Virus record (IMG/VR): IMGVR_UViG_3300037296_000329
Span: 1 to 35,241 of that record
DNA from: a virus
Strand: one strand, 5' to 3'
Length of the DNA stretch: 35,241 bases
Shown here: positions 1 to 35,241 of the stretch, one piece after another
Layout: each line of letters begins with the position of its first letter
Position numbering within the stretch: position 1 is the first letter of the stretch
Notes under the pieces: generated by a model
What the model was told of the DNA's origin: nothing
Seen by the model: only the letters and a program-made list of their open reading frames with translations
Database searches by the model: none
Position numbers and translations under genes: made by a program

Positions 1-281
1 CGGGCTAACTGACTACCTATAATTTATATTATGTTAAATAGACTATTTTATTATAAACACATGATTAGTGTAAGGGGCTGTTCATTCTTGGAATAATGAT
101 GGGATATGGATTTTCGCCCTCGCGTTTAGCAAACCCGCATTATTACTAGGCTTTGGTGGCCACGAGCGCAAAAACTGCTAAATTTAAATTACGCATGGTT
201 TTAGACGAAACCTGTTCAAACTGACTCATTCCCCAATCATTCCTGCTCATTATACGTTTAGAATTAGATCATTGTTGATCG
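1..281. other. Left flank without a convincing gene; possible host DNA
   Basis: I see no gene of normal size here. The longest item is a minus-strand reading frame of 27 codons at 146-229 starting MSQFEQVSSK, with only a weak ribosome site, so it may be a fragment or chance. The sequence does not read as a continuation of the phage head module to the right. If the phage end lies near 273 (a TGTT start just before the TTTAAA array), this stretch would be bacterial flank. That is inference; the matching right end is outside the window. Confidence 0.35.
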
Positions 282-354
282 TTTAAGTTTATTCAAACGG
301 TCTTTAAACGCCATTTAAACGCTCTTTAAATATTTATAACTGCCAATGTTTAAA
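282..354. repeat. TTTAAA 11-bp periodic array A1
   Basis: Hexamers begin at 282 (TTTAAG), 292 (TTCAAA), 303, 314, 325 and 349 (the last four exact TTTAAA). Successive steps are 10, 11, 11, 11 and 24 bp, so most copies lie on the same face of the helix. The array abuts and slightly overlaps the 3' end of the MuF-like gene. Copies at 303 and 314 are followed by CG. It belongs to a family of six such arrays in the window. Function unknown; binding sites for a DNA-binding protein are the natural inference. Confidence 0.8.
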
Positions 355-8002: not shown

Positions 8003-8041
8003 TTTAAATAAGATTTAAACAGGGTTTAAAGTAGTGTTAAA
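8003..8041. repeat. TTTAAA 11-bp periodic array A2
   Basis: Exact TTTAAA begins at 8003, 8014 and 8025, and a one-mismatch copy GTTAAA at 8036: four units with steps of exactly 11 bp. It covers the stop codon of the 74-residue gene and the start of the gap before the late operon. Same unit and period as arrays A1 and A3 to A6. Confidence 0.8.
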
Positions 8042-10213: not shown

Positions 10214-10253
10214 ATTAAATCCTTATTTAAATTATGTTTAAACGGCGTTTAAA
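10214..10253. repeat. TTTAAA 11-bp periodic array A3
   Basis: Exact copies begin at 10226, 10237 and 10248, spaced exactly 11 bp; a degraded copy ATTAAA begins at 10214. The last two exact copies are GTTTAAAC, an 8-bp palindrome. The array fills the gap between the end of the MuB gene and the next gene of the same strand. Confidence 0.8.
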
Positions 10254-11493
10254 CCGCTGGTTTATTAAGTACTGATGAAAAAATGCCATTTATTAAAAGT
10301 TTATCTATGGCCGTGTCTGGGTTTTTATTTGTGTGGTTCAGCAAATGCGGTAACAGGTTTTCAACCAGTTCACGTGCATTACCTTCAACGCGCTTGTGCA
10401 GCCACTGCCACCATTTTGCGTCGTCTTGGGCGAGTTTTACGGTGCCCTCGGTTAACTCTAAAAACAGGGTGCGAATGTCTTCTACGGTTATTTGGCCAAT
10501 GGGTTTAGGCCAAAAGCACACGCGGCTTGCTATTAGTTCGTAACGCTCTTGCGTTTGCAGTTTGTCGACCAGCTGAATGTTGCCAACCAGGGTTACGCCT
10601 ACTATGGCTTGGTCGCTAATGGTGCGCAGTGGGTCGAGTGAGTTAGGCTTGCACTTATCGGCTTCGTCTAAAATGATTAAACGGTCGGTATCGCGCAGTG
10701 CCATAATAATTTTTTGCATGTTTTTATACGCACTTGGGCAGCGCGATAAGCCCAGGGCTGCAGTTAACTGCTCAAGCACTTGGGTACTACTGGTTTGCTC
10801 GCTGCCGGCGATTAAAATGGCTTCTTTATTTTGGCGGCAATATTCATTAATACCTTTGGTTTTACCTAGGCCCGCTTGGCCTGCAAACACACTAAAGCGC
10901 TTACGTGCACGCGCTTGGTCGCACGCCATAGCAATAAGCTTAGAGGTACTAGTAGGAATAAAGCGTACATCGCCGTACACAATACTAATTTGCTTGCGCT
11001 CGGCGGGGTTGTTATTAGCCTTGCCTTGGTCAACATCTGCAGGGCAAATTAACGCCCAAATGTCGTGTAAGTGTTTAGTAGGTTTGGCGTTGTATTTACC
11101 GTTAATTAATTGGCTAATAGACGAGGTGCTTTTACCCATGCTTACGGCAATACTTGCGCTGGTAATGTTTTGGTCGCGTATTTCGGGCGATTGCAAGCGC
11201 AAACAAATACGTGATGCTAATTCGCGATCGGCTTTAGCATACGACTTATTAAAGCCGTTACGTTTTTCAATGTCGGTAATAGCCGCTTCACCAAAGAGCT
11301 TATGCCACATAGCTACAACTATTTTTTCAGGATTTATAGTGCATTTATTTGCCAGCACCTCTTTAACCGATTGCAGCGCAAAGCCACAATTAAGCTCCTC
11401 AATAGTCATGCCTGTGGTGCTCAGCTCTTGGTTAATAAGCTCAACACGTAGCGTTTGCTCGGGTGTGTATGGGAATGGTTGGTTATAGCTCAT
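10249..11493 (-). CDS. MuB-like transposition ATPase
   Basis: At 414 residues, this AAA+ ATPase is the target-DNA chooser and MuA activator. It has an N-terminal helix-turn-helix region (about 109-133, VSMGKSTSSISQLINGKYN), Walker A GQAGLGKT at 205-212, Walker B RLIILDEADK at 271-280, and a C-terminal helical domain of the MuB type. It is longer than Mu's own MuB (about 312 residues), mainly through an N-terminal extension of roughly 100 residues, as in B3-type phages. It overlaps the MuA gene by 11 bp, so the two are coupled. Confidence 0.93.
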   Translation of the reverse strand: MSYNQPFPYTPEQTLRVELINQELSTTGMTIEELNCGFALQSVKEVLANKCTINPEKIVVAMWHKLFGEAAITDIEKRNGFNKSYAKADRELASRICLRLQSPEIRDQNITSASIAVSMGKSTSSISQLINGKYNAKPTKHLHDIWALICPADVDQGKANNNPAERKQISIVYGDVRFIPTSTSKLIAMACDQARARKRFSVFAGQAGLGKTKGINEYCRQNKEAILIAGSEQTSSTQVLEQLTAALGLSRCPSAYKNMQKIIMALRDTDRLIILDEADKCKPNSLDPLRTISDQAIVGVTLVGNIQLVDKLQTQERYELIASRVCFWPKPIGQITVEDIRTLFLELTEGTVKLAQDDAKWWQWLHKRVEGNARELVENLLPHLLNHTNKNPDTAIDKLLINGIFSSVLNKPAV

Positions 11494-13147
11494 AGCTGTG
11501 TTCCTTACGTAAAAGTGGTTGGTCTAATAATTCGTTTAGGTCAATTTCGTGTTGTGGCACTGCAGGTGCTACGTCAAAATCAAAAATATTTACTGGGGTT
11601 AACTGCTCAGTAATGGCATTAACAGGCGCGGCCAGCTCAGTGACTGCATCGATATCAATAATGCGTGTACTGGCTTCTTGGGCGCGCACTTCTTGTAAAT
11701 GTACTTGTAAGCGTTTTTCGCGGCCTGTAAGGCGTTTTTGCTGTGCTTGTTCAACACGCGAAGACGGTATTGCATGGGTTTTGCTTTTTAAGTTAGCAAC
11801 CATTAAAAACTCACCGTTTAACTTATAAAGCTTGGTGTAGCTGTCGTCGTGCATGTCGTAGGCTGCAATTAGTTCTTGGCCATTAAACTGGTGCAAAAAG
11901 TCGGCACTGTAATCACGTTGATGCAAGCGAAAGCGGCCACGGCGAATGTTTACCGTTTCGCGCGGCAGCATTACAAAGTCGCCCTCTACCGGTGGTACGC
12001 GGTCAACGTTTTCATCCCACACTTGTTGGCGAGTTTTACCTTTAACTTCTGGGTGCTCACTGTTGTGGTAGTCGTTTAAAAAGGCTTTAAACTCAGCTAT
12101 CCACTCGTCAACACTTGGCAGTTTACGTTTGCCTTGCTTGGCTTCTTTTAGTACCAGCTGCTTATGGCGATCGTTATGATGGCGACCACAATAAGTGCTG
12201 AACTTTTTGCCTACACGGTCTTCCATGTGCAAAAAGAACCGCTCTATCCACTTGGCTCTGGCATTGCCAGGTATGGCAAAAATAACGTCTATTTCAAACT
12301 GGGCATAAAAGCCGGTGGTGTCGTCGTTCATTAGTTTGTTTTTGTAGCCAGAGCCGTTATCTAAATAAAACATGGCAGGCACGTTGTTATGTACTTTAAT
12401 AGCGCGGCTAATAGCGGCTAAAGTATCAATCGTGCTTTCGGCGTAGCCAAGTTCCCAGCCCACAATGCAGCGGCTTGCTACGTCTTGAAACGCGGTAAGT
12501 TCTGCACGGTATGGCTTGCCTGTTTTAGGGTGCGCTAAATACACGTCAATGGTGTGGCCATCGCCGTTATACATAACGCCAGGCTTAATGTTGTCGGTTG
12601 AGCGCAGTAAGTGATCTTTGTGCTTTTCGCGATACAGCTTTGCACCCATACGGTATGGGCTTTGTGGGCCTAGCTCATGGGGCAATGCATTTATAAAACG
12701 GCGTACTTGGTGGTGCTGTGCCTTGTAGCCCTCTTTATTTAGTTGGTCGCTCACTTGCGCAAAGCTTGGGCTGTTTGGGCTGTGGTACAGCTCAAGGCTG
12801 CGAGCAAGCCAGCTGTACTGGGTTTGTGCTTTGCCTTTATGGTTAGGTAATAAGCCATTAATGCCATTGTCTTTGTACGCATTACACCAGTTATATATAG
12901 TGGCGCGGCCAGGCAACTTGCCTAGTACTTCAATAGCGACCATTAAGGTGCTAGGCGCTAGGTTTGCACGGTAATTAGTTACAAGTAACTCAAACGCTTT
13001 TGGTAACCCGCCTTCTTGGGTAAGCAAGTGGCGCACAAGTACAGCACGGCTTTGGGCTTTTTTGCGGGCGGTTTCGCTGGCATTTTGCCAACTTAGTTCG
13101 CTACCTGTGCTTGGTAAGCGATTAAATCGTTGAACTGCAGGATGCAT
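11483..13147 (-). CDS. MuA-like DDE transposase
   Basis: A 554-residue transposase that would cut and join the phage ends during integration and replicative transposition. An N-terminal helix-turn-helix-rich region (about 30-160) would bind the ends. The catalytic triad is visible as D196 (NGDGHTID), D263 (YLDNGSGYKN) and E302 (KWIERFF), in the spacing of MuA. A beta-barrel follows (about 380-450) and a C-terminal MuB-contact tail (VTELAAPVNA onward). It lies between the 306-residue gene and MuB. A pair of TTTAAA sites 11 bp apart occurs within it near 12075. Confidence 0.95.
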   Translation of the reverse strand: MHPAVQRFNRLPSTGSELSWQNASETARKKAQSRAVLVRHLLTQEGGLPKAFELLVTNYRANLAPSTLMVAIEVLGKLPGRATIYNWCNAYKDNGINGLLPNHKGKAQTQYSWLARSLELYHSPNSPSFAQVSDQLNKEGYKAQHHQVRRFINALPHELGPQSPYRMGAKLYREKHKDHLLRSTDNIKPGVMYNGDGHTIDVYLAHPKTGKPYRAELTAFQDVASRCIVGWELGYAESTIDTLAAISRAIKVHNNVPAMFYLDNGSGYKNKLMNDDTTGFYAQFEIDVIFAIPGNARAKWIERFFLHMEDRVGKKFSTYCGRHHNDRHKQLVLKEAKQGKRKLPSVDEWIAEFKAFLNDYHNSEHPEVKGKTRQQVWDENVDRVPPVEGDFVMLPRETVNIRRGRFRLHQRDYSADFLHQFNGQELIAAYDMHDDSYTKLYKLNGEFLMVANLKSKTHAIPSSRVEQAQQKRLTGREKRLQVHLQEVRAQEASTRIIDIDAVTELAAPVNAITEQLTPVNIFDFDVAPAVPQHEIDLNELLDQPLLRKEHSYEL

Positions 13148-18574: not shown

Positions 18575-18622
18575 TTTAAACACACCCAGTTGAATTTAAA
18601 CACGGTTTAAACATGGTTTAAA
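18575..18622. repeat. TTTAAA 11-bp periodic array A4
   Basis: Four exact TTTAAA units, all followed by C, begin at 18575, 18595, 18606 and 18617: steps of 20, 11 and 11 bp. Three of the four are GTTTAAAC. It lies in the gap between the accessory region and the 121-residue secreted protein, near that gene's 3' end. Function unknown, same class as A1-A3, A5 and A6. Confidence 0.8.
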
Positions 18623-20594: not shown

Positions 20595-21764
20595 ATGGCA
20601 AACAAAACAAGCACAAACACCAAATTCAATTGGTTTGAAGTATTTAGAGCCGGTACACAAACCGATTCTAAAGGCGTAACACACACATTTAGCGACGCGG
20701 ATTTAAACAGCGTTGTAACCAACTTTAAACCTAAAACCGCGCCGCTGGTTATTGGCCACCCTAAAATGCACGATGCTGCATGGGGCTGGGCCAGTGATTT
20801 AAAAGCAGAGGGCGGCTCTTTGTTTGCTAAAGCAGACGATGTTTGCGCTGAATTTGCCCAAGCTGTAGCCGATAAGCGCTACCCTAACCGCTCGGTACGA
20901 TTAGAAAAAGTAGCTAATGGCTACCAACTTGCGCACATTGGTTATTTAGGTGGCAAGCCACCCGCTGTTGAAGGCCTTGCCTGGCAGTTTAACCAAACAG
21001 ATGATGCCGACACCCTTACTCTAGAATTTGCTGCCGGTGATATTGACGACATATCGCTGCACACATCAAACACCCTTACCCGCCTTATGAGTAATTTACG
21101 TGGCTTTATAACCGACCGCTTTGGTAGTGAAGCAGCAGATAAAGTTGTACCTAATTACGAAGGTGAATGGTTAAAAGAAGAAACCATTATTGCTGAGCAT
21201 GAGCGTGCTAAAGCCAATAGCGACAACAATACAGAATTTAATAAAGGCGATGATGCTATTAATACCGATGTAAATAGCAACGCCACCCCACCCACCCATG
21301 AGGACAATGCAATGGATGAAAAAGAGAGAAAGGCGCTGCAAGACCAAATTGATGCAGCGAACGCTAAAAACGCTAAGTTGGAATACGCGCAGCGTGTTGC
21401 AGCGGCCAGCACCTTTATTAATACCGAAGTAAACGGCGGTAAAGCGCCGCGTTTAACGAATACCGATGGTGTGGCTGAGTTTATGGCCAAGTTAAATGAT
21501 GGCGATGCCACGTTTGAATTTGCAGCCAGCGACGGTAAAAACCAAGAGCTTAAACCTGCGACCTGGTTTGAAGGGTTTTTAAAAGGTTTACCAGAGCAAA
21601 CTGGCTTAACGAGCGAGTTTAATAAAGACGATAAAAACGGCGAAGTAACTGACGATAGTGCAGAAACACTGGCAGCTAAGGCGCTTGATTATCAACAATC
21701 ACAATCTAGCAAAGGCGTGACTATTAGCATTACCGCTGCGCTGGACCACATTAAAAAGGCATAA
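20595..21764 (+). CDS. Head maturation protease with nested scaffold (Mu gpI/Z type)
   Basis: At 389 residues, the N-terminal 135 residues match the phage protease of Mu-like phages: WFEVFRAG, an APLVIGHPKMHDAAWGW segment with the conserved GHP, then NRSVRLEKVANGYQLAHIGYLGGKPPAVEGL. The rest is the scaffold, with a coiled coil at 240-275. Both cut-and-assemble functions are carried by one gene in Mu, and the same is visible here. It is the first gene of the rightward operon, though normally it would follow MuF. TAGGA precedes the ATG. Confidence 0.92.
   Translation: MANKTSTNTKFNWFEVFRAGTQTDSKGVTHTFSDADLNSVVTNFKPKTAPLVIGHPKMHDAAWGWASDLKAEGGSLFAKADDVCAEFAQAVADKRYPNRSVRLEKVANGYQLAHIGYLGGKPPAVEGLAWQFNQTDDADTLTLEFAAGDIDDISLHTSNTLTRLMSNLRGFITDRFGSEAADKVVPNYEGEWLKEETIIAEHERAKANSDNNTEFNKGDDAINTDVNSNATPPTHEDNAMDEKERKALQDQIDAANAKNAKLEYAQRVAAASTFINTEVNGGKAPRLTNTDGVAEFMAKLNDGDATFEFAASDGKNQELKPATWFEGFLKGLPEQTGLTSEFNKDDKNGEVTDDSAETLAAKALDYQQSQSSKGVTISITAALDHIKKA
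21312..21764 (+). CDS. Internal in-frame scaffold protein (Mu Z-like)
   Basis: An in-frame ATG at codon 240 of the protease gene begins MDEKERKALQDQ, with AGGA seven bases upstream. Mu makes its scaffold, Z, from an internal start in the protease gene, so the same is likely here: a 150-residue product with an N-terminal coiled coil and no protease domain. Confidence 0.6.
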   Translation: MDEKERKALQDQIDAANAKNAKLEYAQRVAAASTFINTEVNGGKAPRLTNTDGVAEFMAKLNDGDATFEFAASDGKNQELKPATWFEGFLKGLPEQTGLTSEFNKDDKNGEVTDDSAETLAAKALDYQQSQSSKGVTISITAALDHIKKA

Positions 21765-22164: not shown

Positions 22165-22205
22165 CGCAGCTGGGTTAACTTAAATTTATATAATAAGGAT
22201 TTGTC

Positions 22206-23141: not shown

Positions 23142-23173
23142 CGCTAGATTTAATTTTTCATTGTTCCCTAGTT

Positions 23174-23215: not shown

Positions 23216-23228
23216 AACTGAGGTGTGT

Positions 23229-23696
23229 ATGTTTACGACAGTTCAAGCAGTTATCGACAAAGTTGGCATTAATGTGCTGTTGCAATTTGCTACGGCTAAG
23301 TTTGCGGTGGCGGGCAGTCGCCCTACTCGTGACGATGTAGAAGCCGCGCTTTTAAGTGAAACGTATAGTGAGTTACAAGCGCAGATTAATGCTTGGTATA
23401 ACCAAGCGCAAAAAAATGTAAATTCAGTTATTGCGGGGTATGTAGCGCGGTTTGAGCTAAACCAACGCGACATTGATGGCTCGGTATTACCTGGCATAGC
23501 TAATGATTTAATGCATTGTGAACTTGCCCCTAACATTGCAGACGAACACCTTAAAAACCTTAAAAGCAGTGCTATGGCGATGCTAGACAAGGTTAGTAAA
23601 GGCGTGATCCAAATTAAGGAAGACGGGCCCGCAGCCACAAGAACAGGGATGCGCACGAGAGTTGCAGGCTCTCAATTTAATTGGCCAGGTTATTAA
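23229..23696 (+). CDS. Head-tail connector protein (DUF1320/gp36-like)
   Basis: The 155-residue protein (ATG at 23229, GAGG upstream; an upstream GTG at 23223 is less likely) has the DUF1320 pattern: FTTVQAVIDKVGINVLLQFA at the start, then EAALLSETYSELQAQINAWYN and a C-terminal IAGYVARF...LPGIANDLMHCEL. These are neck proteins between portal and tail. It is the first gene after the capsid terminator, ends 2 bp before the next start, and so is closely coupled. Confidence 0.82.
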   Translation: MFTTVQAVIDKVGINVLLQFATAKFAVAGSRPTRDDVEAALLSETYSELQAQINAWYNQAQKNVNSVIAGYVARFELNQRDIDGSVLPGIANDLMHCELAPNIADEHLKNLKSSAMAMLDKVSKGVIQIKEDGPAATRTGMRTRVAGSQFNWPGY

Positions 23697-23697
23697 A

Positions 23698-24120
23698 GTG
23701 GCGGGTGTATTTATAAATATAACGGGTAATGCGCTAACAGGTTTAACCCAAATTGCAAATACAAGTGGTGAACCCGCTGATGTATTGGATGATATTGGTG
23801 CCTTTTTAGACATGGACGTTACCACCCGATTTTTACGTGAAGTAACACCCAGTGGTAAAAAATGGGAGCAATCGCAAGCAGCCAAAGACCGTGGCGGTTT
23901 AACGCTTACTGATGAGCGTAACCTGGCAGGCTCGGTAACGCACAACGTAAACGGCAATACGCTTGAGCATGGTTTAGGTGAAAAGTATGCAGCAATACAC
24001 CACTTTGGTGGTGAAACTGGCCGGAATAAAAGTGTGACGTTACCAGCGCGTGAAATTATAGGCATACAAGTGCCACAAATAGCACACATTAACGGCATGA
24101 TCACCGATTGGTTAATTTAA
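23698..24120 (+). CDS. Virion morphogenesis protein (Mu G-like)
   Basis: This 140-residue protein matches the phage virion morphogenesis family: GEKYAAIHHFGGETGRN at about residues 100-116, then LPAREIIGI near the C-terminus. I choose a GTG at 23698 (MAGVFINITGNAL) because AGG lies 8 bases upstream and it follows the previous stop at once; a longer frame from TTG at 23662 is possible. It acts in head-tail joining or tail completion. Array A5 begins at its end. Confidence 0.8.
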   Translation: MAGVFINITGNALTGLTQIANTSGEPADVLDDIGAFLDMDVTTRFLREVTPSGKKWEQSQAAKDRGGLTLTDERNLAGSVTHNVNGNTLEHGLGEKYAAIHHFGGETGRNKSVTLPAREIIGIQVPQIAHINGMITDWLI

Positions 24121-24164
24121 ACATGTTTAAAGAGCATTTAAATGGCATTTAACTTTGATTTAAA
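24116..24164. repeat. TTTAAA 11-bp periodic array A5
   Basis: TTTAAA begins at 24116, 24126, 24137 and 24159 and a near copy TTTAAC at 24148: steps of 10, 11, 11 and 11 bp. It spans the stop of the G-like gene, the short gap and the first codons of the next gene. Confidence 0.8.
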
Positions 24165-24585
24165 CAACATAGAAACCTTGCTAAGCAACACTGTGCTTAA
24201 TGCAACCGTTGGCTTTGCAAGCGACTTTAACTACGTGCGTGAACATGCAGTACACAGTGCCCAGCTGTTTGTATTGCCACTGGCCGATGACAATATCAAT
24301 ACCAATGAAGTGCCTGGGCTTGATGAGTATCAGGTTAAAGATGTGTTTGCGGTGATGATTGTGATCCCCTGCTCTGCAGGGAATGCCACCACTGATGAAC
24401 AAATTAAACAACTGCGCAGTGATATTAAAACCGCCGTGGCTGGGTGCCAGTATGCGGGGTGGGATGCAATAAAACTTGATAAAGGCCGCACGATTGAGCT
24501 TAGCAAGAAAACAAATAATTTAATTTATCAGTGTCAGTTTAGTGTAACTGGCATACATACCGTAGCTGTGAGGGCAATGCCATGA
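24142..24585 (+). CDS. Tail terminator-like protein (DUF1834)
   Basis: The 147-residue protein fits the DUF1834 family (Mu gp37-like): VREHAVHSAQLFVLPLADD near the start, VKDVFAVMIVIP in the middle and LIYQCQFSVTGIHTVAVRA at the end. The family sits between the G-like gene and the tail tube and probably caps the tail tube. Its N-terminal codons lie inside array A5 (FNFDLNN), so DNA and protein constraints overlap. Confidence 0.78.
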   Translation: MAFNFDLNNIETLLSNTVLNATVGFASDFNYVREHAVHSAQLFVLPLADDNINTNEVPGLDEYQVKDVFAVMIVIPCSAGNATTDEQIKQLRSDIKTAVAGCQYAGWDAIKLDKGRTIELSKKTNNLIYQCQFSVTGIHTVAVRAMP

Positions 24586-24785
24586 GCAAAAAAACAGAGC
24601 CGCAATTAACCACGACTACCGACAGTAAAGCTGTGGAGCCTAAAGCCCCCGCTATGTCGCGAGCGATGACAATTGCACAAAACGTTAACCAAACTTTAGC
24701 AAATGCTAAAGGTAACAGAGATGAGCTAGCTGGCGCTTTTGATTTAAAGAGTGGTGAGCTAATTAAAGTGGAGGTTACGGCATGA
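24582..24785 (+). CDS. Hypothetical tail-region protein, 67 aa
   Basis: Small, charged and Thr/Lys-rich, with a central helix (MSRAMTIAQNVNQTLANAK) and an IKVEV C-terminus. It overlaps both neighbours by 4 bp (ATGA type), so it is coupled between the tail terminator and the tail tube. It occupies the gp38-like position in Mu-like phages but I see no domain to name. Confidence 0.65.
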   Translation: MSKKTEPQLTTTTDSKAVEPKAPAMSRAMTIAQNVNQTLANAKGNRDELAGAFDLKSGELIKVEVTA

Positions 24786-25681
24786 GCACGTGGCGATTTA
24801 AAGACAAACTCATTTTAGCAGATGCAGCTGGTACGACGCTAACTGGCCTACATGCAATATATGCCAGTGACGTGGAGTTTACGCCAGAGAGCGAAAGCGA
24901 AAAAGACGAGCTAGAAACCAGCTATAGCGGTGCAAGCATGGAAACCTTTTATGGCGAGCATGTAAGCCTAAACTTTAAAACACCGCTGGCAATGAGTGGT
25001 ACAGCGGGTACAGCACCAGCATATGCGCCACTACTGCTTGCCTGTGGCATGGTGCAAGTGGCTGATGTTAGCAGCGTTACCTTTACTAAAGGTGCGGCAG
25101 TGGCTGCTAAGTGCGCGTTACGCTTTGGTAAAAACACCCATAACATTACACAAATGAAAGGCAATGTGAGCTTTGCGCTTGAAAAAGGTAAGCCCATGCT
25201 TAACTGGCAGTTTAAAGGTTTGTTTAGTCCGCCGGTTGCAAGCAGTGCCCCGCCAAGTGTTGATTGGGATCGTTGGGTACGCCCCGAAGTGCTAGGCGTA
25301 AGTAACAGCTCTGACTTTAAACTAAGTGGCACCCAGCGCACGCTGCATAAGTTAACAGTTGATTTGGGTAATAACGTGGTGTTTGACCGTGCCATTAACC
25401 ACGAAGAAATTATGATTACCGGGCATGAAAGCAGCGCTAACTTTACACTAAGCGCCGATGAGCTAACAAACTTTGATCCATGGAAAGACGTGGGCAAAGT
25501 GCAAACGTTTGAGTTTACCCATGGTACTGCTATAGGTAAAAAAGTAACCATTATTGGGCGTTACCAAATGCCGTGGCCAAAATACACTAGCCTGGACTCG
25601 GAATTAACCGGTTACGAATTTGACGGCAAACTAGTACCCAGTGGCGCAGGCTATGACGAACTAACGATTGTTTTTGAGTAA
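24782..25681 (+). CDS. Major tail tube protein
   Basis: The 299-residue protein starts STWRFKDKLILADAAG and has an alternating beta pattern, with VEFTPESESEKDELETSYSG, a small-residue segment, then NFTLSADELTNFDPWKDVG and WPKYTSLDSELTGYEFDGKLVP. Its size and place before the chaperones and tape measure match the tail tube proteins of B3-like siphoviruses. There is no sheath gene, which is why I call a non-contractile tail. ATGA overlap with the preceding gene. Confidence 0.82.
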   Translation: MSTWRFKDKLILADAAGTTLTGLHAIYASDVEFTPESESEKDELETSYSGASMETFYGEHVSLNFKTPLAMSGTAGTAPAYAPLLLACGMVQVADVSSVTFTKGAAVAAKCALRFGKNTHNITQMKGNVSFALEKGKPMLNWQFKGLFSPPVASSAPPSVDWDRWVRPEVLGVSNSSDFKLSGTQRTLHKLTVDLGNNVVFDRAINHEEIMITGHESSANFTLSADELTNFDPWKDVGKVQTFEFTHGTAIGKKVTIIGRYQMPWPKYTSLDSELTGYEFDGKLVPSGAGYDELTIVFE

Positions 25682-25718
25682 TCGTTTTTAGTAACTCTTT
25701 TGAAAAGGTATTTAAACA

Positions 25719-26045
25719 ATGAAGTTAAAATTACTAAATGACTTAAAAAATGCGGTGGTAAAAGCCCCTCTTAATTTTGAGTTTGGGGGTGTGCTGTTTA
25801 AGTTTACCGCACACATAAAGCTAGTGCCAGAAAGCGAGCTAAAACTGCTGACTGAAAAGCAAGGCGCTAATGATGGTGAAATTGTACGTGAACTGCTTAT
25901 TAGCTGGGATGGCTTTGTTGATGACGGCAAAGACGTACCTTTTGCAAACGACACGCTTGAAGAACTACTGGCGTACAGCGGCATAACCGCCCGCTTAAGT
26001 GTTGAGTGTATTAATGCGCAGTACCGTATACACGAAAAAAACTAG
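25719..26045 (+). CDS. Tail assembly chaperone, zero-frame product
   Basis: A 108-residue protein: a beta-rich N-terminal part (LNFEFGGVLFKFTAHIKLV) followed by a helical stretch (TLEELLAYSGITARLSVECINAQYR). It ends with GAA AAA AAC and a TAG stop, which forms the slippery site. Position between the tail tube and the tape measure gene is that of lambda G. The upstream TTTAAA at 25711 is isolated. It is made alone or extended by -1 frameshift into the next frame. Confidence 0.85.
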   Translation: MKLKLLNDLKNAVVKAPLNFEFGGVLFKFTAHIKLVPESELKLLTEKQGANDGEIVRELLISWDGFVDDGKDVPFANDTLEELLAYSGITARLSVECINAQYRIHEKN

Positions 26046-26407
26046 CCGATGTTGCTAGGTGGTTTTTGGGCGACCTAGCAGCATCAAGTAAAACACTAGA
26101 TGACGACGAAGCCCATTTTGGTGCACCTAAAGCACCGCTTATAAAAGAAGATACATTATTTGTATTACCGCAAAACCACTGCGCTGTGATTGCACTTACA
26201 ACCGCGAGCAGCCAGTGGCAACGTGATAACGAAGGGGTAGAAATAGCCCTAGATTATGCCCGGGCAGATATAGCGTGGCGCTATGCAAATATAACGTTAA
26301 CCCCTAATGATTTTGAAAAACTACAAACATTAGAGCGCACCATAATAAACATAATAAGGCGACCCGATGAGCAACAAACTGAATTTGGCGTTACGCTTAA
26401 GTTATGA
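25719..26407 (+). CDS. Tail assembly chaperone fusion by -1 frameshift (lambda G-GT type)
   Basis: Zero-frame codons up to AAC (26040-26042) are followed in the -1 frame from CTA at 26042 to the stop at 26407. The predicted product is 229 residues: 108 from the first frame and 121 from the second (LADVARWFLGDLAASSK onward, a DUF1799-like sequence). The second frame has no good start of its own (TTG at 26066), as expected for the T part. The site is detailed in a separate feature. The short form and the fusion guide tail tube assembly round the tape measure. Confidence 0.8.
26036..26085 (+). promoter_or_regulatory. Programmed -1 frameshift site
   Basis: The slippery heptamer A AAA AAC is at 26036-26042, directly before the TAG stop. 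After a 5-nt spacer, GATGTTGCTAGG (26048-26059) pairs with CCTAGCAGCATC (26074-26085), 12 bp with one G-U, and a 14-nt loop. A-AAA-AAC is among the strongest known bacterial slip sites and the spacing is standard. Confidence 0.85.
26066..26407 (+). CDS. DUF1799-like downstream half of the tail chaperone
   Basis: This -1 frame carries 113 residues counted from its TTG, with a conserved DWRYANITL-like motif, reading DIAWRYANITLTPNDFEKLQTL near the end. It is probably not translated independently: its own start is a TTG without a good ribosome site, and the frame is open upstream to the slippery site at 26036. It overlaps the tape measure gene by 41 bp. Confidence 0.75.
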   Translation: MGDLAASSKTLDDDEAHFGAPKAPLIKEDTLFVLPQNHCAVIALTTASSQWQRDNEGVEIALDYARADIAWRYANITLTPNDFEKLQTLERTIINIIRRPDEQQTEFGVTLKL

Positions 26408-29315
26408 CGGTAAAGCGGTTAGTGCTGGTGCGCGCCAAAACGTAAACGAACTAAACCGCATACCCCAAGCAGTACAGCGTCAGGTGGCGGCTAACCAGCA
26501 ATTAGGCGCAAGCCAAGCCCGCATTATGCAACAGCAAGGCGCAATGACCCGCCAATTGGGGTTAATGAATACCGCGTATGGGCAAATAGGTGCAACCCTC
26601 ACGACCTTAGTGGGTATTGGTACCGCGACTATGTTTGTGCGTGATACCGGCGCTGCACAATTGCTAGATACTCGCTTAAAAGGATTAACGGGCTCAGCTG
26701 AAAATTACGCCAAAGTACAAGAGTATTTATTTGCTACATCTGATCGCTTAAATACCAATTACACTACGCTTGCTGATTCGTACAGCCGCGTTTTAACCTT
26801 GCAAGAGTCTGGGTTAGTGACTAACGCACAAGGTAAAGCGATATTAGAAGGTTTTGCCAATGTAGCCGCTAAAACAGGTGCCAGTAATGTACAGCTTGGG
26901 CAGAGTTTGTTTGGTATGACTCAAGGGATGACTGCCGGCGTTTTACGTGCAGAAGAGTTAAACCAAGTAACTGAGCCATTGCCAGGCTTAATGCAAAAGC
27001 TTGATAAAGCCAGTGGTGGTGTAGCAGGTAGTTTTAGGAAAATGGTGAATGCTGGGCAAGTCACCAGTGCCATGTTTAAAACCACATTAATAGCCGCGCT
27101 GGGTGATTATGCCGGTGCTGCCGAGGCCACTGAGGGTAAAATAAACGCCAGCTTTGCGGAAATGGGGAATGAGTACCAGCGCTTAATACGCAAATATGAA
27201 GAGCCTGTAAACTTTGCTGTTACCAGCGTGGTTGATTCTATTACCGATACCATGGCGTATTTACGTGAGAACGAAGACGCCGTAGATAGCTTAATGGTAA
27301 CAACAGGTGCATTAGCTACGGTACTTACTGGGCATTTAGCATCTGCTTTAGCTGCCAGTGGTAAAGGGTTTATTGCAAATATAGCCGCGAAGAATAAAGC
27401 GGTTATTACCGATGCTGCCTTAGCCAAGCAAGCAAATATAACGGCGATTGCTGAACACAAACGCGCATTACAAGATATAGAACGTGCGAAGCATAATGTA
27501 ATATTGGCGCAAACATCACAGCAACGCGCAGCAGCCCAAACTGCCGTTAATGTTGCAGAGCAAAGAGGTGTAATTACAGGCAATGCGTTAACCGCAACCA
27601 CTAAGGCGTATACCGTCGCAGCAGGCAGCGCCACGATTGCATCGCGTGGGCTTGCGACTGTTATGGGGCTTTTAGGTGGGCCAGTTGGTTTAGTGGTCAC
27701 TGCGGGTATAGCCCTGGCTTATTTTTTACGTGAGAGTGAAAAAGTTGAAAAACAAACACCCAAGTTAGAAGCCAAGCTTTATGATTTAGGGACTGCATTT
27801 GACTCTATAGATAATAAAAAAGCCACGACACAGTTAAGACAGACACAAACTGAAATTAATAAATATACGACCAACATTGAGCAAGCCTATAAAAAAATAG
27901 CGGATTTAAAGGCACGACAAGAAACCGCAAAAGGCACTCGCTTTGTTAGTTTATTCCAAAATCAAATAAATGAAACACAACAATATATAAACGAGCAAGC
28001 TAAGCTACGCGCAGAATCAATGAAGACAGCAGCTGAAATTGCTAACATAAAACAAAACCTCGACGCACTCGATTGGACTGACGCCACAGCAAAAACGAAA
28101 GGTGCAGCGAGTGCCCTACCCGATAACATTAAGCGTTTAGAAGTCAGCTTAATGGGCGAAGAGGCTCGCTTAAAAGACAGCTACGATAAACGTAAGCAAA
28201 TGGTGATCACCGCTCGTAGCAACGATGCTGGTAATAAAGCTAAATACGATGAAATTTTAAAGCAGCTTGATATTAAGTACAGTGATGACTTAAAAAGCAT
28301 AGCTGTTAAGCGCGAAGCTGATAAAACGCGGATACAAAACCAAGCAGAAGAAAAGCGTAAAAATGACTTACAACGTGATTTAGAAAACCGTATTGCCGTA
28401 GTTAAAGGCTTTGCTGGGCGTGAAGCGCTGGCTGCTTACAACAACGAACTGAGTGTTGAGCAAGCTAGGCAACAAGCCAGAGTTGATGCAAAACGCCGAG
28501 CACAAATTGGCTTGGCGGCTAATGATGATGCGGGCGAACTTGAATACAATGCTGATAGCCAAATTAAGGATTTGGAACGACAGACAGAACTTAATGCAGC
28601 TAACGGTTATTACAGCCAGCGCGAGGCTGACGAGGCAGCTCATCAAGAGCGGTTAATGCAAATTAAAAGCCGTAATACAGGTGCTTTACAAAGCAGTATT
28701 GTGGCCTTTGCTAACTTTGAAAAACAAACCGAAACAGAAAAAGCGGGTGCTATTGTTGGTTTAGGTGCTGCCACATTTAAAACAATGGCAGGACAAAGTA
28801 AAACAGCCTTTAAAGCGTATAAAGCATTTGCTATAGCGCAAGCAGTAATTAATACATATGAAGGTGCTACAGGTGCTTATAAATCGTTGTCTGTAATCCC
28901 CGTTGTTGGCCCCGTGCTGGGTGGCGTTGCTGCTGCAGCTGCTGTTATGCAAGGTATGCAGCAAGTACGGCAAATAAAAGCACAGCAACCAGCGGGTATT
29001 GCTCACGGTGGTTTAGACTATGTACCTAACGAATCTACTTATGTACTGCAGCGTGGTGAGCGTGTATTAAGCCCGAAACAAAATACCGAAATTAGCCAAA
29101 TGGCACGACGTTATAATGGTGGCGGCGCTGCTAATGATGCTGGTTCTGGCGGGGTTAGTATTAGTATTACCAACCAAATTACGGTGCAAGGCTCAACTAA
29201 TGAGCAAAACTCGCAAGCTGTTGGCCAAGACATAGCACGCAAGGTTGTGGGTGTTGTGGTAGCTAATATACAAGAAAACGGCTCGATTATTAGAGCAGTA
29301 CGTGGTGCTGCTTAG
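26367..29315 (+). CDS. Tape measure protein
   Basis: At 982 residues this sets tail length. The N-terminal coiled coil (20-60) is followed by the tape-measure domain (about 75-250, with MFVRDTGAAQLLDTRLKGL and YAKVQEYLFATSD). A hydrophobic segment lies at about 430-456 and another near the C-terminus (IPVVGPVLGGVAAAAAVM). A long coiled-coil middle (about 460-750) and the C-terminal GGLDYVPNESTYVLQRGERVLSP are typical. At about 0.15 nm per residue the tail would be roughly 150 nm, an inference. The start follows AAGGCGACCCG and overlaps the chaperone. Confidence 0.93.
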   Translation: MSNKLNLALRLSYDGKAVSAGARQNVNELNRIPQAVQRQVAANQQLGASQARIMQQQGAMTRQLGLMNTAYGQIGATLTTLVGIGTATMFVRDTGAAQLLDTRLKGLTGSAENYAKVQEYLFATSDRLNTNYTTLADSYSRVLTLQESGLVTNAQGKAILEGFANVAAKTGASNVQLGQSLFGMTQGMTAGVLRAEELNQVTEPLPGLMQKLDKASGGVAGSFRKMVNAGQVTSAMFKTTLIAALGDYAGAAEATEGKINASFAEMGNEYQRLIRKYEEPVNFAVTSVVDSITDTMAYLRENEDAVDSLMVTTGALATVLTGHLASALAASGKGFIANIAAKNKAVITDAALAKQANITAIAEHKRALQDIERAKHNVILAQTSQQRAAAQTAVNVAEQRGVITGNALTATTKAYTVAAGSATIASRGLATVMGLLGGPVGLVVTAGIALAYFLRESEKVEKQTPKLEAKLYDLGTAFDSIDNKKATTQLRQTQTEINKYTTNIEQAYKKIADLKARQETAKGTRFVSLFQNQINETQQYINEQAKLRAESMKTAAEIANIKQNLDALDWTDATAKTKGAASALPDNIKRLEVSLMGEEARLKDSYDKRKQMVITARSNDAGNKAKYDEILKQLDIKYSDDLKSIAVKREADKTRIQNQAEEKRKNDLQRDLENRIAVVKGFAGREALAAYNNELSVEQARQQARVDAKRRAQIGLAANDDAGELEYNADSQIKDLERQTELNAANGYYSQREADEAAHQERLMQIKSRNTGALQSSIVAFANFEKQTETEKAGAIVGLGAATFKTMAGQSKTAFKAYKAFAIAQAVINTYEGATGAYKSLSVIPVVGPVLGGVAAAAAVMQGMQQVRQIKAQQPAGIAHGGLDYVPNESTYVLQRGERVLSPKQNTEISQMARRYNGGGAANDAGSGGVSISITNQITVQGSTNEQNSQAVGQDIARKVVGVVVANIQENGSIIRAVRGAA

Positions 29316-29369
29316 TTGTTAAGATACTGACATTAGTGTAAAAAGGAGTTTTTAAGCGAGGGAATGTTT

Positions 29370-30191
29370 GTGAGTAAAACTGTAAATCAGAATCATGCTG
29401 GAATTTTAGCTGTTTTAATTGCTGTAATATCAATTTTAATTTCATTATCCATATTCTTTAATCGATTTGGTATGAACTTAGATACACCAATAAAGAGTTG
29501 GGTAGATACTGCGGTCTATTTTAATAACGTTTTAACTCCAGTACTGGCTTTAATAACGGTTGGGCTATTAGCTTCTAACCTTAAATCGATGAAAGAAGCA
29601 AATAATTTAGTTATAAATCAGATCGGGCTAGATTTATTTGTAAAACAAGTACAAATAACAAGAGATCAATTTCTTGATGACAACTTATTTAGCTTTAAGT
29701 TAGATGTTTGCGGCAAATTATCTGATGTATTAGGGGATAACTCTTGTCTTAAAAGGAAAGTTGAAGAGTTTGACGGTATAAAACCGCTAACGATTAATAG
29801 CCTTGTTAACAAAACAATAGATATAAAATTTGATGTGAAAACTTGCTTACAACTATACAAATATTATAAGAAAATTGATAAACCCTTAGATGTTGTAGGG
29901 CTGATTAAAAATTCAGATAATCTTGAGAAAGTTTTACGCCCTTTAATGGGGGAGGTTATAGTTGAAAAAATTTCAAATTTTGATAAAGATGAAAATATTA
30001 CAAATGTAGCATTAAACAGTTTCAAATATTTGCTTGAGGAGTTGTACAAGCAAAAGGAAGAGGCACTCTATACTCTTTATATAAAATCCTTTAAGATGAA
30101 CTTTGACACGGATTTGGTAAGTTTGATATTCGAATTTGATACAAAACTTTTAAATAAAAACTTAAAAGAAGAACTTGAAAGATATATGTAA
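29370..30191 (+). CDS. AT-rich moron protein with two N-terminal membrane segments
   Basis: About 273 residues. The GTG at 29370 is preferred over ATG at 29364 because GAGGG lies 7 bases before it and only 1 base before the ATG. Two hydrophobic segments (about residues 12-33 and 47-68) are followed by a charged helical domain. It is visibly more AT-rich than the tail genes on both sides, which also favours A/T-ending codons. It sits between the tape measure gene and the Dit-like gene, where such phages usually have nothing. A superinfection exclusion or anti-phage role is plausible; no domain recognised. Confidence 0.7.
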   Translation: MSKTVNQNHAGILAVLIAVISILISLSIFFNRFGMNLDTPIKSWVDTAVYFNNVLTPVLALITVGLLASNLKSMKEANNLVINQIGLDLFVKQVQITRDQFLDDNLFSFKLDVCGKLSDVLGDNSCLKRKVEEFDGIKPLTINSLVNKTIDIKFDVKTCLQLYKYYKKIDKPLDVVGLIKNSDNLEKVLRPLMGEVIVEKISNFDKDENITNVALNSFKYLLEELYKQKEEALYTLYIKSFKMNFDTDLVSLIFEFDTKLLNKNLKEELERYM

Positions 30192-30231
30192 ACCCCTTTC
30201 CAGCCAAAGAGTTACCCATTAAATTTTATAC

Positions 30232-30267
30232 TCGTTACCAGTGTTTAATCTTGAAACCTGGTAACGA
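30232..30267 (+). promoter_or_regulatory. Hairpin ending at the start codon of the next tail gene
   Basis: TCGTTACCAG (30232-30241) pairs perfectly with CTGGTAACGA (30258-30267), a 10-bp stem with a 16-nt loop. The last base is the A of the ATG, so the start region is in the stem. It could limit translation until melted, or be a remnant of the cargo insertion. No good Shine-Dalgarno is visible outside it. Confidence 0.6.
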
Positions 30268-30872
30268 TGCAACCTCTTCCACTCCCAAAACGGCCTAAGT
30301 TATCTAACTTTACGTTAGTGCCTAATAGCCAAACTCATTTAAATAAAGCCAACAATGCCACTGAGATTTACGACTTAGAAGGTGCTTATTGGGAGTTTGA
30401 AATTGAACTTGCCAATGTGCCTGAGCGCGATGCGTTGGCGCTTGATGGTTTTATTGCCAGCCTGCGCGGCCAAGTGGGTACGTTTACCTTAATTGATTAT
30501 CGCCGTGAGCAGCTAGATAAAGACTTTACTGGCTTTGTACGTGGTGCAAACCAAGATGGCAACATATTAAATATTGATGGCTTACCCGCTAACAAAACCT
30601 TGCTGGTTGCTGGCGAACGCATGCAAGTTGGCGTTGGGCAAAGCACTGAGCTTAAAATATTAACGGCTGACTTGGTAAGTAATTCGATTGGCCAAGCAAC
30701 GGTTAATTTTGAATCTCCTGTTCGCAAAATACCTGCAGACAATACCCTAATTACGTTTAAGCAACCCGCTGGCTTATTTAGACTTGCTGATAATAAGCAA
30801 GGGCTTGCGAGTGCTCAATATAAAAAAGGTATTGTTACCAGCTGGAAAATTAAAGGTCGGGAGGCGTTTTAA
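30267..30872 (+). CDS. Tail protein, Dit-like position
   Basis: The 201-residue protein starts MQPLPLPKRPKLSNFTLVPNSQTH and continues with EGAYWEFEIELANVPERDALALDGFIASLRGQVGTFTLIDYR, a pattern of distal-tail or minor tail proteins that join tube and tip. The order (tape measure, this, DUF2163, NlpC-like, tip) is the standard one in B3-like and gene-transfer-agent-like tails. It ends with a 1-bp overlap with the next gene. The AT-rich cargo gene and the hairpin separate it from the tape measure gene. Confidence 0.75.
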   Translation: MQPLPLPKRPKLSNFTLVPNSQTHLNKANNATEIYDLEGAYWEFEIELANVPERDALALDGFIASLRGQVGTFTLIDYRREQLDKDFTGFVRGANQDGNILNIDGLPANKTLLVAGERMQVGVGQSTELKILTADLVSNSIGQATVNFESPVRKIPADNTLITFKQPAGLFRLADNKQGLASAQYKKGIVTSWKIKGREAF

Positions 30873-31462
30873 TGGAAAGCTTAAATGCTGCTTTACTTGC
30901 TGATTTAGCTAATAGCGGCCGTGCCCGCTACTTTGTGCGCTTAGCCTTTAAAAGTGGTGATGTTTTACTGCATACAGGTGTTGGTGAGCGCCGCTTTAAA
31001 AACCGTACTTGGCATGGCGTAGGTATGTTAGGCACGGTAAGCGAAATACCGGCCAGCGATAAAAATGACAGTGCCCGTATTCGTTTAACTTTACACACTC
31101 AAGACCAAGCTGTTTTAGCTGAGGTTGCCGAAAATGACCCGATTAGCCTGGGCTGCGAAATTTACCTTGTAACTGTTGATGAGCATTACCGCGTTAGCCA
31201 AAGCCAAATACTTGAAAGCGGCTACATTGTTGCGTGCGATGTTGAACGTGGTGACGTGTCGCAAATTCAATTGAGCATAGCGGGTGAAAGCGAGCGTTGG
31301 AAAGATGCACGATTACACCAACGCTGGAACGATGCAACCCAAAAAGCGCTGCACCCGGGCGATAAGTTTTTTAGTGAGCAAACAACGGCAAACAAACAAA
31401 AGCTACGTGACACACAACCGGGTAAATACATAGGGGATAATCGACATGAACGCCAACGCTAA
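30872..31462 (+). CDS. DUF2163-like baseplate hub protein
   Basis: The 196-residue protein has the family pattern: ARYFVRLAFKSGDVLLHTGVGERRFKNRTWHGVG at about 18-51, VSEIPASDKNDSARIRLTLH, DPISLGCEIYLVTVDEHYRV and the RWKDARLHQRWNDATQKALHPGDKFF end. Such hub proteins connect the tail tip. Start is by a TAATG overlap. The stop overlaps the NlpC-like gene by 17 bp. Confidence 0.82.
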   Translation: MESLNAALLADLANSGRARYFVRLAFKSGDVLLHTGVGERRFKNRTWHGVGMLGTVSEIPASDKNDSARIRLTLHTQDQAVLAEVAENDPISLGCEIYLVTVDEHYRVSQSQILESGYIVACDVERGDVSQIQLSIAGESERWKDARLHQRWNDATQKALHPGDKFFSEQTTANKQKLRDTQPGKYIGDNRHERQR

Positions 31463-31856
31463 ACTTGCTGCTTTTGTTACTCAGCGTAACTGTGAACCTT
31501 TTAAATGGGGTAAAAATGATTGTTGCTTATTGATTGCCGATTGGGTGTTGTTTGCAACGGGCAATGATGTTGCAGCTGACTTTAGAGGCGCTTATCGCTC
31601 AAAAACGGGGGCATTTAAACAATTGTTTAAACGCGGTTTAAACGATGTTCAAAGTGTATTTAAAGACCGTTTAAACCCTGAAGTACCGATTGCTTACGCC
31701 CGCCGTGGCGACATTGCATTAGTTGAATTTAATAATGAATATGTGGGCGGCATTGTGACTGTTAACGCGGTGGTATGTGTTGGCGAAAATGGCTTAGTGA
31801 CTTTACCAATCGACACGGTAAAAGCGGTTTACCCATTGGAGCCGCGAAATGTCTAA
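31446..31856 (+). CDS. NlpC/P60-like tail peptidase (DUF6950)
   Basis: A 136-residue protein with FKWGKNDCCLLIADW near residues 18-32, where the catalytic cysteine would lie, and a second segment ARRGDIALVEF at about 79-89, as in DUF6950 tail-tip proteins that cut peptidoglycan at entry. The expected histidine is not evident: IVTVNAVVCV stands where GxH would be, so it may be inactive. Array A6 is encoded inside it (residues 57-77). It overlaps the tip gene by 8 bp. Confidence 0.78.
   Translation: MNANAKLAAFVTQRNCEPFKWGKNDCCLLIADWVLFATGNDVAADFRGAYRSKTGAFKQLFKRGLNDVQSVFKDRLNPEVPIAYARRGDIALVEFNNEYVGGIVTVNAVVCVGENGLVTLPIDTVKAVYPLEPRNV
31614..31675. repeat. TTTAAA 11-bp periodic array A6 (intragenic)
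   Basis: TTTAAA begins at 31614, 31626, 31637, 31659 and 31670, and a one-mismatch TTCAAA at 31648: steps of 12, 11, 11, 11 and 11 bp. It is inside the NlpC-like gene, where it reads as AFKQLFKRGLNDVQSVFKDR. A period of 11 shifts the reading frame at each unit, so the regularity is a DNA, not protein, property. Confidence 0.88.
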
Positions 31857-34800
31857 GGTAGTTGATACAGTTGTAAATGTTGTAGACAGCATATTTGAAG
31901 TAACAGGGCTGGGCGCGCTTTGGGACTCACTATCTCCTGATGTGCCTGAAAAAGATTTAGCAACGCTTGGCCAAGGCTTGCAAAAAGGCATAGACCAACC
32001 CCGCCGTATTACCTTTGGCCGTGACCGCGTTGGCGGTGTTATTGCCCACCAAGCGGAAGTTGAAAAAGGCGGTAAAAAATGGATGCAGTTAATTGTACTG
32101 ATTAATGGTGCCCCCATTGATGCTCTTGAAGAAATATACATTGCTGATAAAAAGCTAACCGATTACCCACGAGAAAGTTGGGATTACTCTTTAAGTGATG
32201 GCCGCCAAACCACCGCTAACGCAAAAGCGGTGGCTAAAATGGCGGGATGGACGAGTGAACATGTTGGTTTTGGCCAAAGCTATCTTTTTATTGAAATGGA
32301 AAATAATCGTGAAGTGTTTGAAGATGGCATAAACGATATGGGCTTTTTAATACGTGGTGCCCGTGTGTGGGACCCAAGAGATACAGCCCAAAACCCTAAT
32401 GATGAGAGCACCTGGCTTTGGAGCCAAAATGCGGTGTTATGCGCCCTGCACTATGTACGTTTTTATGGAGCCCATGAGGTCCCTTTTGAACGTTTACCGT
32501 TACAGTGGTGGATTGCAGCCATTAACGTATGTGATGAAGATGCCGAATTTACCGATGCTGAGGGCGTTGTTACCACCGAGCCGCGCTACACAACCAATGG
32601 TAGTTTTACATTTAGCTCAAAGCCGCTTGAAGTACTAGGCCAGCTTGAAGCCTGTTTCGCGGGTAAAATTTTTAGGCAAATGGGCCAATGGTATGTACGT
32701 GTGGGGGCTTGGTATGGCGAACCGACCTACACCATTAGTGCTGATGATGTACACGGTAACATTAAAATAAAGTGGCATGCTGATTTACGCGATCGTGCGA
32801 ATGTTGTGAGAGCGACGTTTACCGATCCAATGCAAAATTACGACCGTACAGATGCCCCGCCCGTTGTGTCTGCTGGGTATCAAGCTATTGATAATCAGAT
32901 ATTAGAAAAGTCGATTACGTTACCGTTTGTGCGCAGTGGCACGACGGCCCAGCGCCTGGCAACAATCTATTTAGAACAAACCCGGTTAGGTGAAATCGAA
33001 CTGCCGCTTAAGCATAAGGGGTTGGCTGCAGCTGTTGGCCGTACGGTGTATTTAAACCTACCGAGTGAGTCGATAAACAATAAAATATACCGTGTAGTTG
33101 AGCGCCGCTTTAGATTAGACGGCGGCGTGACATTGATGTGCGTTGAAGACGGCCCTGATTTATGGGCTGATAATTTAGTACCTGGTGCGCAAGATTTAAC
33201 GCCAAATAGTGACTATTTAGTGAGTAAGCCACAACCTATTTTTGATGTACGGGTTACGATTGATGGGGACGGCAATGGCATTATTAAATGGAACCACCCT
33301 GCGCCGCTTGCTGTTAATGAATATGATATTGAGTTTATTAATACTGCGGCTGATGAGCAGGTGTTTAAAACCTCTGTTACCTACACCCAAGTAACGATTC
33401 CGAATTTACAACTGGGTGAATACACCGCACGTATTAGTGCTAAAAACATATTTGGACAACGCTCCTTACTTGTAGCTGTGCAATTTAGTGTGCTTACCCC
33501 GACTTTACCTACCGTTTATGTAACTGCAGATTACAACCAAATAACGCTAACTGCTGACATAGCTACAGCAGGTATTGGCACTGCGTTTGAGTGGGAGTTT
33601 TTAGGTACCACAGAAAGTCCGCAAAGCGGTGAGCGTGCGTTGGCGCAAATATACAACCGTATTGGCCTAAAAAGTGAAACTGAGTATAAGTTTAGAGTGC
33701 GCAGCGTTAACCATTTGGGTGCTAGCGCCTGGGTAGATGTTATAGCAAGTACCACGCTTGTGGATTTAACCGAGTTTATTAATGGTGTTGAATTAACTCA
33801 ATTAAGCCCTGATGCGCAAACGCTAATTGAGGATATGAACACGCAAGTTGATCGCTTGCGTCCTGAAACCGAGAACAATTTACCCGATGTAATAGCCCAA
33901 GCAGTAAGTGAGTTAAACCTTGAAAAACAAGCCCGTGTTGATATTGAAAAAGGTGTGTTTGACTTATCTGCAAATTACACTAATTGGCGGCAGGAGTATG
34001 AGCAGCGCCAATTAGGTAATGAGCGTTTAATAGATGCGGCTGTCTATTTTGATCGTGATAGTGGAACAATTGTTAATCGTGCTTTTGCTCATACTGAGAA
34101 TGCGTTTAACGAGGCTACTTTAAAAATTAATGGGGTGAATGCCAGCGTTGCTATACAAGCAAACCGTATAACTCAAAGCGATAAACGTATAAGCCAAGCT
34201 GAAGCTGAGCTTATTGTACAAGCCGGGCAAATTACACAACGCGCTACGTTTAGTGAAATGCAGAGTGAAATAGCTGGGGCTATTGAAGCGTTAAGCCCTG
34301 CTTATAGCTGGCAATTTAATAGTAACAATGAAGGGTTTACAGGTGTTCAAAGCCACAATATACAAGGCTACATTACGGCTCTAGGACAAATTACAGCCCC
34401 TGTAGTAAGTTACTTAGCCGATGAAAACCCAATGTTTAGGTTGCGTGTACGCTTACACTTAGATAAACAATGGTTAGGACAAATTAGTTTTAATAGTGCT
34501 GCCGCTATAATTAATATACCGGCACCTGCGAATAACGAGTGGCAAACGCTGCAAGTTGACGCGACTGGAACGGAAGGTTACACCGGATTAATAACTGCCC
34601 TCGCCTTTAATTTGGGTGAGTGTGATGTCGATTTTATTGAGGTGGGTAAACGTGGCGCTAATGATTTGGCGCTTAATGATATTACAGTTCGCACATCTAG
34701 TTTAGAGAATGATATTAATGCGGGTACGGGTATTATGGCCCAGTACGCGACGACAACGTGGGTGAATGCTTTAGGTTATCAAACGCAATCTAGCGTTAAT

Positions 34801-35241
34801 GAAATACTAGATACCTTTAACACTACGTATAAAGTTAGCGCCACGCTACAAGCCTTCAATGACGCGGGAACGCTTGAAAAAGCCAATAATGCTCAACAGT
34901 TTATTAATGGTGCTGAAGCATACATAAAGAACCAGGTAACGGTTTTTAATGCCGCAGAAGGTGGTATTGATGCACAGGTTTCTAATGTTGAGCAAAAACT
35001 TGATGCAATTGACGGTACGATTAGTCAAAACATAGTTCAAGTTCAAGGCCTTGAACTTGATTTGAAACAGGCGAATTTAAACGATATTTTAAACGCAGCA
35101 AATCAAGTTATTCAAAATCAAGAATTTGCTCAGCAAAATATAAAGCTATCGCTTGCGCAGTCGGCTTTAGAAGCAAAAACAACCACTTTAGAGTCTGTAG
35201 CTAGCCAAACACTAGCGTTAGCAGCGGTGTTTAATAAGAAC
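31849..35241 (+). CDS. Tail tip / host attachment protein (J/TipJ-like), partial
   Basis: The frame begins ATG at 31849 and is open to the end of the window (1131 codons so far, no stop). The N-terminal part is tail-hub like (ITFGRDRVGGVIAHQAEVEKGGKKWMQLIVLINGAPIDALEEIYIAD). Two fibronectin type III-like domains lie at about residues 462-640 (FDVRVTIDGDG, WNHPAPLAVNEYDIEF, YTARISAKNIFGQ; then YKFRVRSVNHLGAS). A coiled-coil and beta region with repeated SxxxEIAGAIEAL, and Q/A/N-rich heptads toward 34200-35241, follow, as in central tail fibres. It recognises the host receptor. The C-terminus is missing from the window. Confidence 0.88.
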   Translation, partial: MSKVVDTVVNVVDSIFEVTGLGALWDSLSPDVPEKDLATLGQGLQKGIDQPRRITFGRDRVGGVIAHQAEVEKGGKKWMQLIVLINGAPIDALEEIYIADKKLTDYPRESWDYSLSDGRQTTANAKAVAKMAGWTSEHVGFGQSYLFIEMENNREVFEDGINDMGFLIRGARVWDPRDTAQNPNDESTWLWSQNAVLCALHYVRFYGAHEVPFERLPLQWWIAAINVCDEDAEFTDAEGVVTTEPRYTTNGSFTFSSKPLEVLGQLEACFAGKIFRQMGQWYVRVGAWYGEPTYTISADDVHGNIKIKWHADLRDRANVVRATFTDPMQNYDRTDAPPVVSAGYQAIDNQILEKSITLPFVRSGTTAQRLATIYLEQTRLGEIELPLKHKGLAAAVGRTVYLNLPSESINNKIYRVVERRFRLDGGVTLMCVEDGPDLWADNLVPGAQDLTPNSDYLVSKPQPIFDVRVTIDGDGNGIIKWNHPAPLAVNEYDIEFINTAADEQVFKTSVTYTQVTIPNLQLGEYTARISAKNIFGQRSLLVAVQFSVLTPTLPTVYVTADYNQITLTADIATAGIGTAFEWEFLGTTESPQSGERALAQIYNRIGLKSETEYKFRVRSVNHLGASAWVDVIASTTLVDLTEFINGVELTQLSPDAQTLIEDMNTQVDRLRPETENNLPDVIAQAVSELNLEKQARVDIEKGVFDLSANYTNWRQEYEQRQLGNERLIDAAVYFDRDSGTIVNRAFAHTENAFNEATLKINGVNASVAIQANRITQSDKRISQAEAELIVQAGQITQRATFSEMQSEIAGAIEALSPAYSWQFNSNNEGFTGVQSHNIQGYITALGQITAPVVSYLADENPMFRLRVRLHLDKQWLGQISFNSAAAIINIPAPANNEWQTLQVDATGTEGYTGLITALAFNLGECDVDFIEVGKRGANDLALNDITVRTSSLENDINAGTGIMAQYATTTWVNALGYQTQSSVNEILDTFNTTYKVSATLQAFNDAGTLEKANNAQQFINGAEAYIKNQVTVFNAAEGGIDAQVSNVEQKLDAIDGTISQNIVQVQGLELDLKQANLNDILNAANQVIQNQEFAQQNIKLSLAQSALEAKTTTLESVASQTLALAAVFNKN

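Follow-up and report, generated by a model that had tools for sequence, protein, structure and literature searches.

Helically phased TTTAAA arrays in a Pseudoalteromonas-type Mu-like prophage and in other transposable phages, a possible tag for phage self-recognition

The stretch analysed here, referred to as the window, comprises the 35,241 nucleotides of an IMG/VR virus record (IMGVR_UViG_3300037296_000329) and holds most of a Mu-like transposable prophage. It encodes a MuA-type transposase (Pfam rve and Mu-transpos_C), a MuB-type AAA+ ATPase, GemA, Mor, a Mu-like F protein, terminase and portal, and a tail gene region that includes a DUF6950 gene. The first 68 bases are host DNA, while the right end of the phage lies beyond the window. 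Relatives named in the genome collection are all Pseudoalteromonas. The gene order differs from that of Mu, since early genes through portal and F run leftwards and the protease, capsid and tail genes run rightwards from the middle, a layout shared by the relatives. A 306-aa protein encoded upstream of MuA is conserved across this superclade and in Curvibacter phage TJ1. It has no Pfam hit and yielded only a low-confidence helical model (pLDDT 66), and is possibly a target selector. Table 1 gives an overview of the features.

Table 1. Features of the window. Positions are those of the window; units are of the TTTAAA type.
Position	Strand	Feature	Details
12..39	+	Host dif-like 28-mer	29 bp outside the left phage end
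69..77	+	Left phage terminus	TGTAAGGGG
292..330		Array A	4 units, non-coding, about 220 bp inside the left phage end; conserved in relatives
350-15054	-	Early genes through portal and F	Leftward block
8003..8041		Array B	4 units, upstream of the endolysin operon
10226..10253		Array C	3 exact units, overlapping the 3' end of the MuB gene
10249..11493	-	MuB homologue	Extra N-terminal helical part, HTH at about residues 103-149, AAA+ ATPase at about 168-412; proposed array binder
11483..13147	-	MuA-type DDE transposase	Pfam rve and Mu-transpos_C
13157-14077	-	306-aa protein	Upstream of MuA
18595..18622		Array D	3 exact units, intergenic
20595-35240	+	Protease, capsid and tail genes	Rightward block
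20702..20729		Weak array-like site	Middle unit TTGTAA, inside the head protease gene; below the strict threshold
24126..24164		Array E	4 units, across a gene junction
31446..31856	+	DUF6950 tail-region gene	Pfam PF22262; carries array F
31614..31675		Array F	Units at 31614 (12-bp step), then 31626, 31637, 31648 (TTCAAA), 31659 and 31670 at 11 bp, inside the DUF6950 gene

A sequence-only reading had noticed six units at 11-bp spacing, one of them with a mismatch, within an NlpC-like gene, and had proposed that codon and amino-acid choice is bent to preserve the DNA repeat. The presence of the repeat was confirmed with two small corrections. The first unit is 12 bp and not 11 bp away from the second, thus five units (31626-31675) are in strict 11-bp register, and the mismatched unit is the one at 31648. 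Furthermore, the gene belongs to DUF6950 (Pfam E 1.4e-35) and is not a recognised NlpC family member. The array is one of six strict arrays of at least three units in the window, whereas none was found in 250 Markov shuffles. When synonymous codons were redrawn for the fixed protein, the observed chain was reached in 37 of 20,000 draws. Although the coding fraction of the window is 0.93, two arrays contain no coding base, one has 5 of 28, two are partly coding and only array F is fully coding.

To test for conservation, 27 relatives were fetched by means of the DUF6950 protein. All 27 records contain the pattern, while the backwards-read control pattern gave zero hits in all of them. In 21 records (the window and 20 relatives) chains of at least three units number 118 at period 11 and 0-1 at each other period from 7 to 18. 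The arrays recur at the same map positions (about 0.3-0.9, 8, 10-11, 18-20, 24, 31-33 and, where covered, 43-48 kb), in orientation with the genes. Nevertheless, array spacing along the genome is not significantly more regular than random, except in one genome. The unit is a symmetric 8-bp palindrome, R-TTTAAA-Y, followed by three uninformative positions. Among 64 palindromes tested only TTTAAA forms such arrays, and only at 11 bp; no other palindrome served as array core, also in array-negative groups.

The comparison of homologues suggested by the sequence-only reading supports its interpretation. At codons whose amino acid is conserved in 25 distinct homologues, third positions vary in 0 of 9 codons inside TTTAAA cores, in 6 of 7 in spacers and in 49 of 58 in the rest of the gene (Fisher core vs. 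rest 1e-6; as the sequences are related, this P is only indicative). No homologue keeps the protein segment without the pattern, and even the 57%-identical homologue L031 keeps it in degenerate form. A 37%-identical homologue in Vibrio phage ZX4290 has neither the array nor the F-K residues, so amino-acid choice seems to be shaped too. One copy of the gene (L032, in genome G027) has an in-frame stop after the middle of the array segment, from a frameshift or a sequence error. However, the sequence-only view was too local, since the array belongs to a genome-wide set found in many transposable phages.

Indeed, in eight whole Pseudoalteromonas genomes exact three-unit arrays lie nearly all within about 45 kb of a MuA gene, and the clear exceptions are simple repeats. 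Of 369 gammaproteobacterial genomes only the query genome had an exact four-unit array, located in its Mu-like prophage. In IMG/VR four exact units at 11 bp occur in 111 stretches, against 9 for AAATTT at 11 bp and 14 for TTTAAA at 12 bp. Outside the clade, 22 of 85 of the 11-bp stretches carry Mu-like core genes in the part fetched, and 9 of 36 further contigs have Mu-transpos_C against 0 of 14 control contigs. Very divergent Mu-like phages, one of 55% GC, carry 5-8 arrays each, while five non-transposable phages with a DUF6950 relative have none.

Loci were also fetched by the MuB protein sequence alone, which revealed an about 50-80-fold enrichment (151 arrays). For SuMu-type MuB 92 arrays were counted in 80 loci (mean of other periods 1.9), and for Mu-type MuB 59 arrays (mean 0.75). 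RcapMu-type MuB lacks the N-terminal helix-turn-helix (HTH; median 35 residues before Walker A against 96 and 101), and here 0 arrays were found in 40 loci and 551 kb. Within the GC class 0.50-0.60 there were 14 arrays in 542 kb against 0 in 450 kb. Likewise, D3112, RcapMu and RR1-B lack both the HTH and arrays. Nevertheless, the query alignments included some array-bearing phages and HTH loss is a clade trait, so that this is an association confounded by phylogeny and not proof. VW-6B and phiRTG5 have the HTH but no TTTAAA arrays, and many Mu-type HTH-bearing phages lack strict arrays. Covariation of the recognition helix with the arrays looked suggestive by eye, but helix columns did not stand out when compared with the other MuB columns. 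Classical Mu has four weak, degenerate period-11 arrays, compared to one in all 19 other periods together and none in 60 shuffles. The one at the MuA/MuB junction is kept with changed spacers in several Mu relatives.

MuB is among the few proteins shared by array phages. The MuB profile matches the solved MuB N-terminal domain 2mqk (E 1.8e-12), and the model of the window MuB matches MuB filaments 8xvb (Z 23.1; profile E 3e-92). In the AlphaFold model the window MuB has the matching helices, but the structure search covered mainly the AAA+ part and the HTH therefore rests on sequence profiles and helix positions. In this clade MuB has an extra N-terminal helical part of about 90 residues before the HTH, which is absent from Mu and SuMu MuB.

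The ends of the prophages were inspected as well. The phages have TGTAAG termini, and 5-bp target duplications were read from genomes G031 and G030, and from G028 if its left end starts 3 bases further out. Prophages of this clade (ends in the window and in genomes G003-G008, G011, G019, G024 and G027-G031) sit on one side of a dif-like 28-mer at gaps of 20, 21, 22, 29, 32, 33, 34, 46, 66 or 67 bp, always on the XerD side with the left phage end towards it. The 28-mer was identified as dif from its XerD arm TTATGTTAAAT, which probably matches that of E. coli dif. In the window-type phages whose right end was read (genomes G011, G012, G017 and G020) this sequence, a perfect XerD half-site, is present about 50 bp inside the right terminus. 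In G030 a second, partial F-gene and left-end copy with an array lies just outside the right end (G030:C2:254671-255132), suggesting a nested or earlier insertion near dif. The position of the prophages of this clade looks like transposition aimed at dif, in the manner of res-site hunting by Tn5053-type elements; no such phage was found in the papers searched.

According to these data, the arrays are best explained as protein-binding sites with one symmetric 8-bp contact per helical turn, 3-7 units long and placed at 5-8 spots along the genome including near both ends. That a protein binds them is inferred but very likely. That this protein is the phage's own MuB, the AAA+ target-capture ATPase, acting through its N-terminal lambda-repressor-like HTH, is about as likely as not; no binding data exist. 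Arrays would load MuB filaments onto phage DNA, mark it as self, block self-insertion (Mu genome immunity) and/or gather the genome and its two ends into one domain; this role is possible but remains tentative, as does the explanation as a whole. Where an array falls inside a gene, codons and residues seem to be chosen to keep it. A published ChIP study found MuB throughout Mu and MuA only at the ends, with no known sequence feature to explain the strong MuB binding (PMC2837660), and the arrays are a candidate for this feature. On the other hand, MuB is described as a non-specific DNA binder and its deletion only mildly breaches genome immunity (PMC7350765).

Among the alternatives, dispersed operators ("stoperators") of a phage repressor or another transcription regulator, which would shut down or block transcription across the prophage, are unlikely but survive best. 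The sites are palindromic with an HTH-type logo, several arrays lie in gaps or at operon boundaries, and the stoperators of mycobacteriophage L5 probably represent a precedent. However, phages that keep the same arrays have different repressor-type genes: in G006 (L053) ner is 43% identical and HTH15164 gives no hit, while MuB is 94%. Moreover, the motif is the same across very divergent phages, whereas immunity operators usually diverge, and arrays also lie in structural genes. The L5 sites are also probably single and asymmetric, in contrast to the tandem, helically phased and palindromic units described here.

Binding of the MuA-type transposase, giving whole-genome cis-immunity, is slightly less likely. 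Arrays lie near both termini in several phages and MuA-type genes occur in array phages, but MuA ChIP in Mu found no binding inside the genome (PMC2837660), and RcapMu, RR1-B and D3112 have MuA but no arrays. Similarly doubtful are sites for a host nucleoid protein or xenogeneic silencer, exploited or suffered by the phage. The AT-rich flexible TpA steps and published work tying the Mu domain to IHF, Fis and HU (PMC3820752) would fit, but host chromosomes almost lack the arrays outside prophages (only exact arrays of at least 3-4 units were tested), the five non-transposable phages lack them, and arrays follow MuB type within the GC 0.50-0.60 class. Intrinsic bending or flexibility without a dedicated protein is very unlikely despite the helical phasing, since phased T3A3 tracts are presumably not of the curved type (AnTn bends, TnAn does not) and the AAATTT pattern of equal composition is rare. 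Coincidence of FK/LN codons, although TTT and AAA are the commonest F and K codons here, or recent tandem duplication is practically excluded by the absence of arrays in shuffles, the differing spacers and the lack of synonymous change in the cores.

In Mu genome immunity and the Mu prophage domain (PMC2837660; PMC3820752; PMC7350765) the whole transposable-phage genome is likewise treated as self, with MuB bound throughout and paired ends. No description of a cis-acting repeated sequence was found there, and the arrays are strong here and only degenerate in Mu. In the open-access literature searched, no report of these arrays was found. Plasmid centromere repeats such as the ParR sites of R1 seem to share tandem 11-bp units for a dimeric, polymerising DNA-binding protein, but a plasmid would have one centromere, while there are 5-8 arrays per phage and no partition gene was recognised. 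OmpR/PhoB-family boxes may show a comparable 11-bp register of a 7-bp motif (7+4 bp direct repeats) but as directional units in promoters, while the unit here is symmetric, dispersed, often not at promoters and rare in host DNA.

How a transposing phage avoids jumping into itself is an open question. Published work states that MuB coats the Mu genome without a known sequence reason and that most genome immunity depends on unknown factors (PMC2837660; PMC7350765). It is not excluded, though rather doubtful, that transposable phages across several MuA/MuB lineages carry a shared DNA "self" mark, read by the HTH of MuB, and that this is the missing sequence feature behind strong MuB binding and genome immunity in phage Mu. 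The arrays represent a specific, countable DNA motif shared by distant transposable phages, with degenerate copies in Mu itself, which makes this directly testable in E. coli. It would also give the MuB HTH domain a DNA-recognition role and show a non-coding code imposed on protein-coding sequence.
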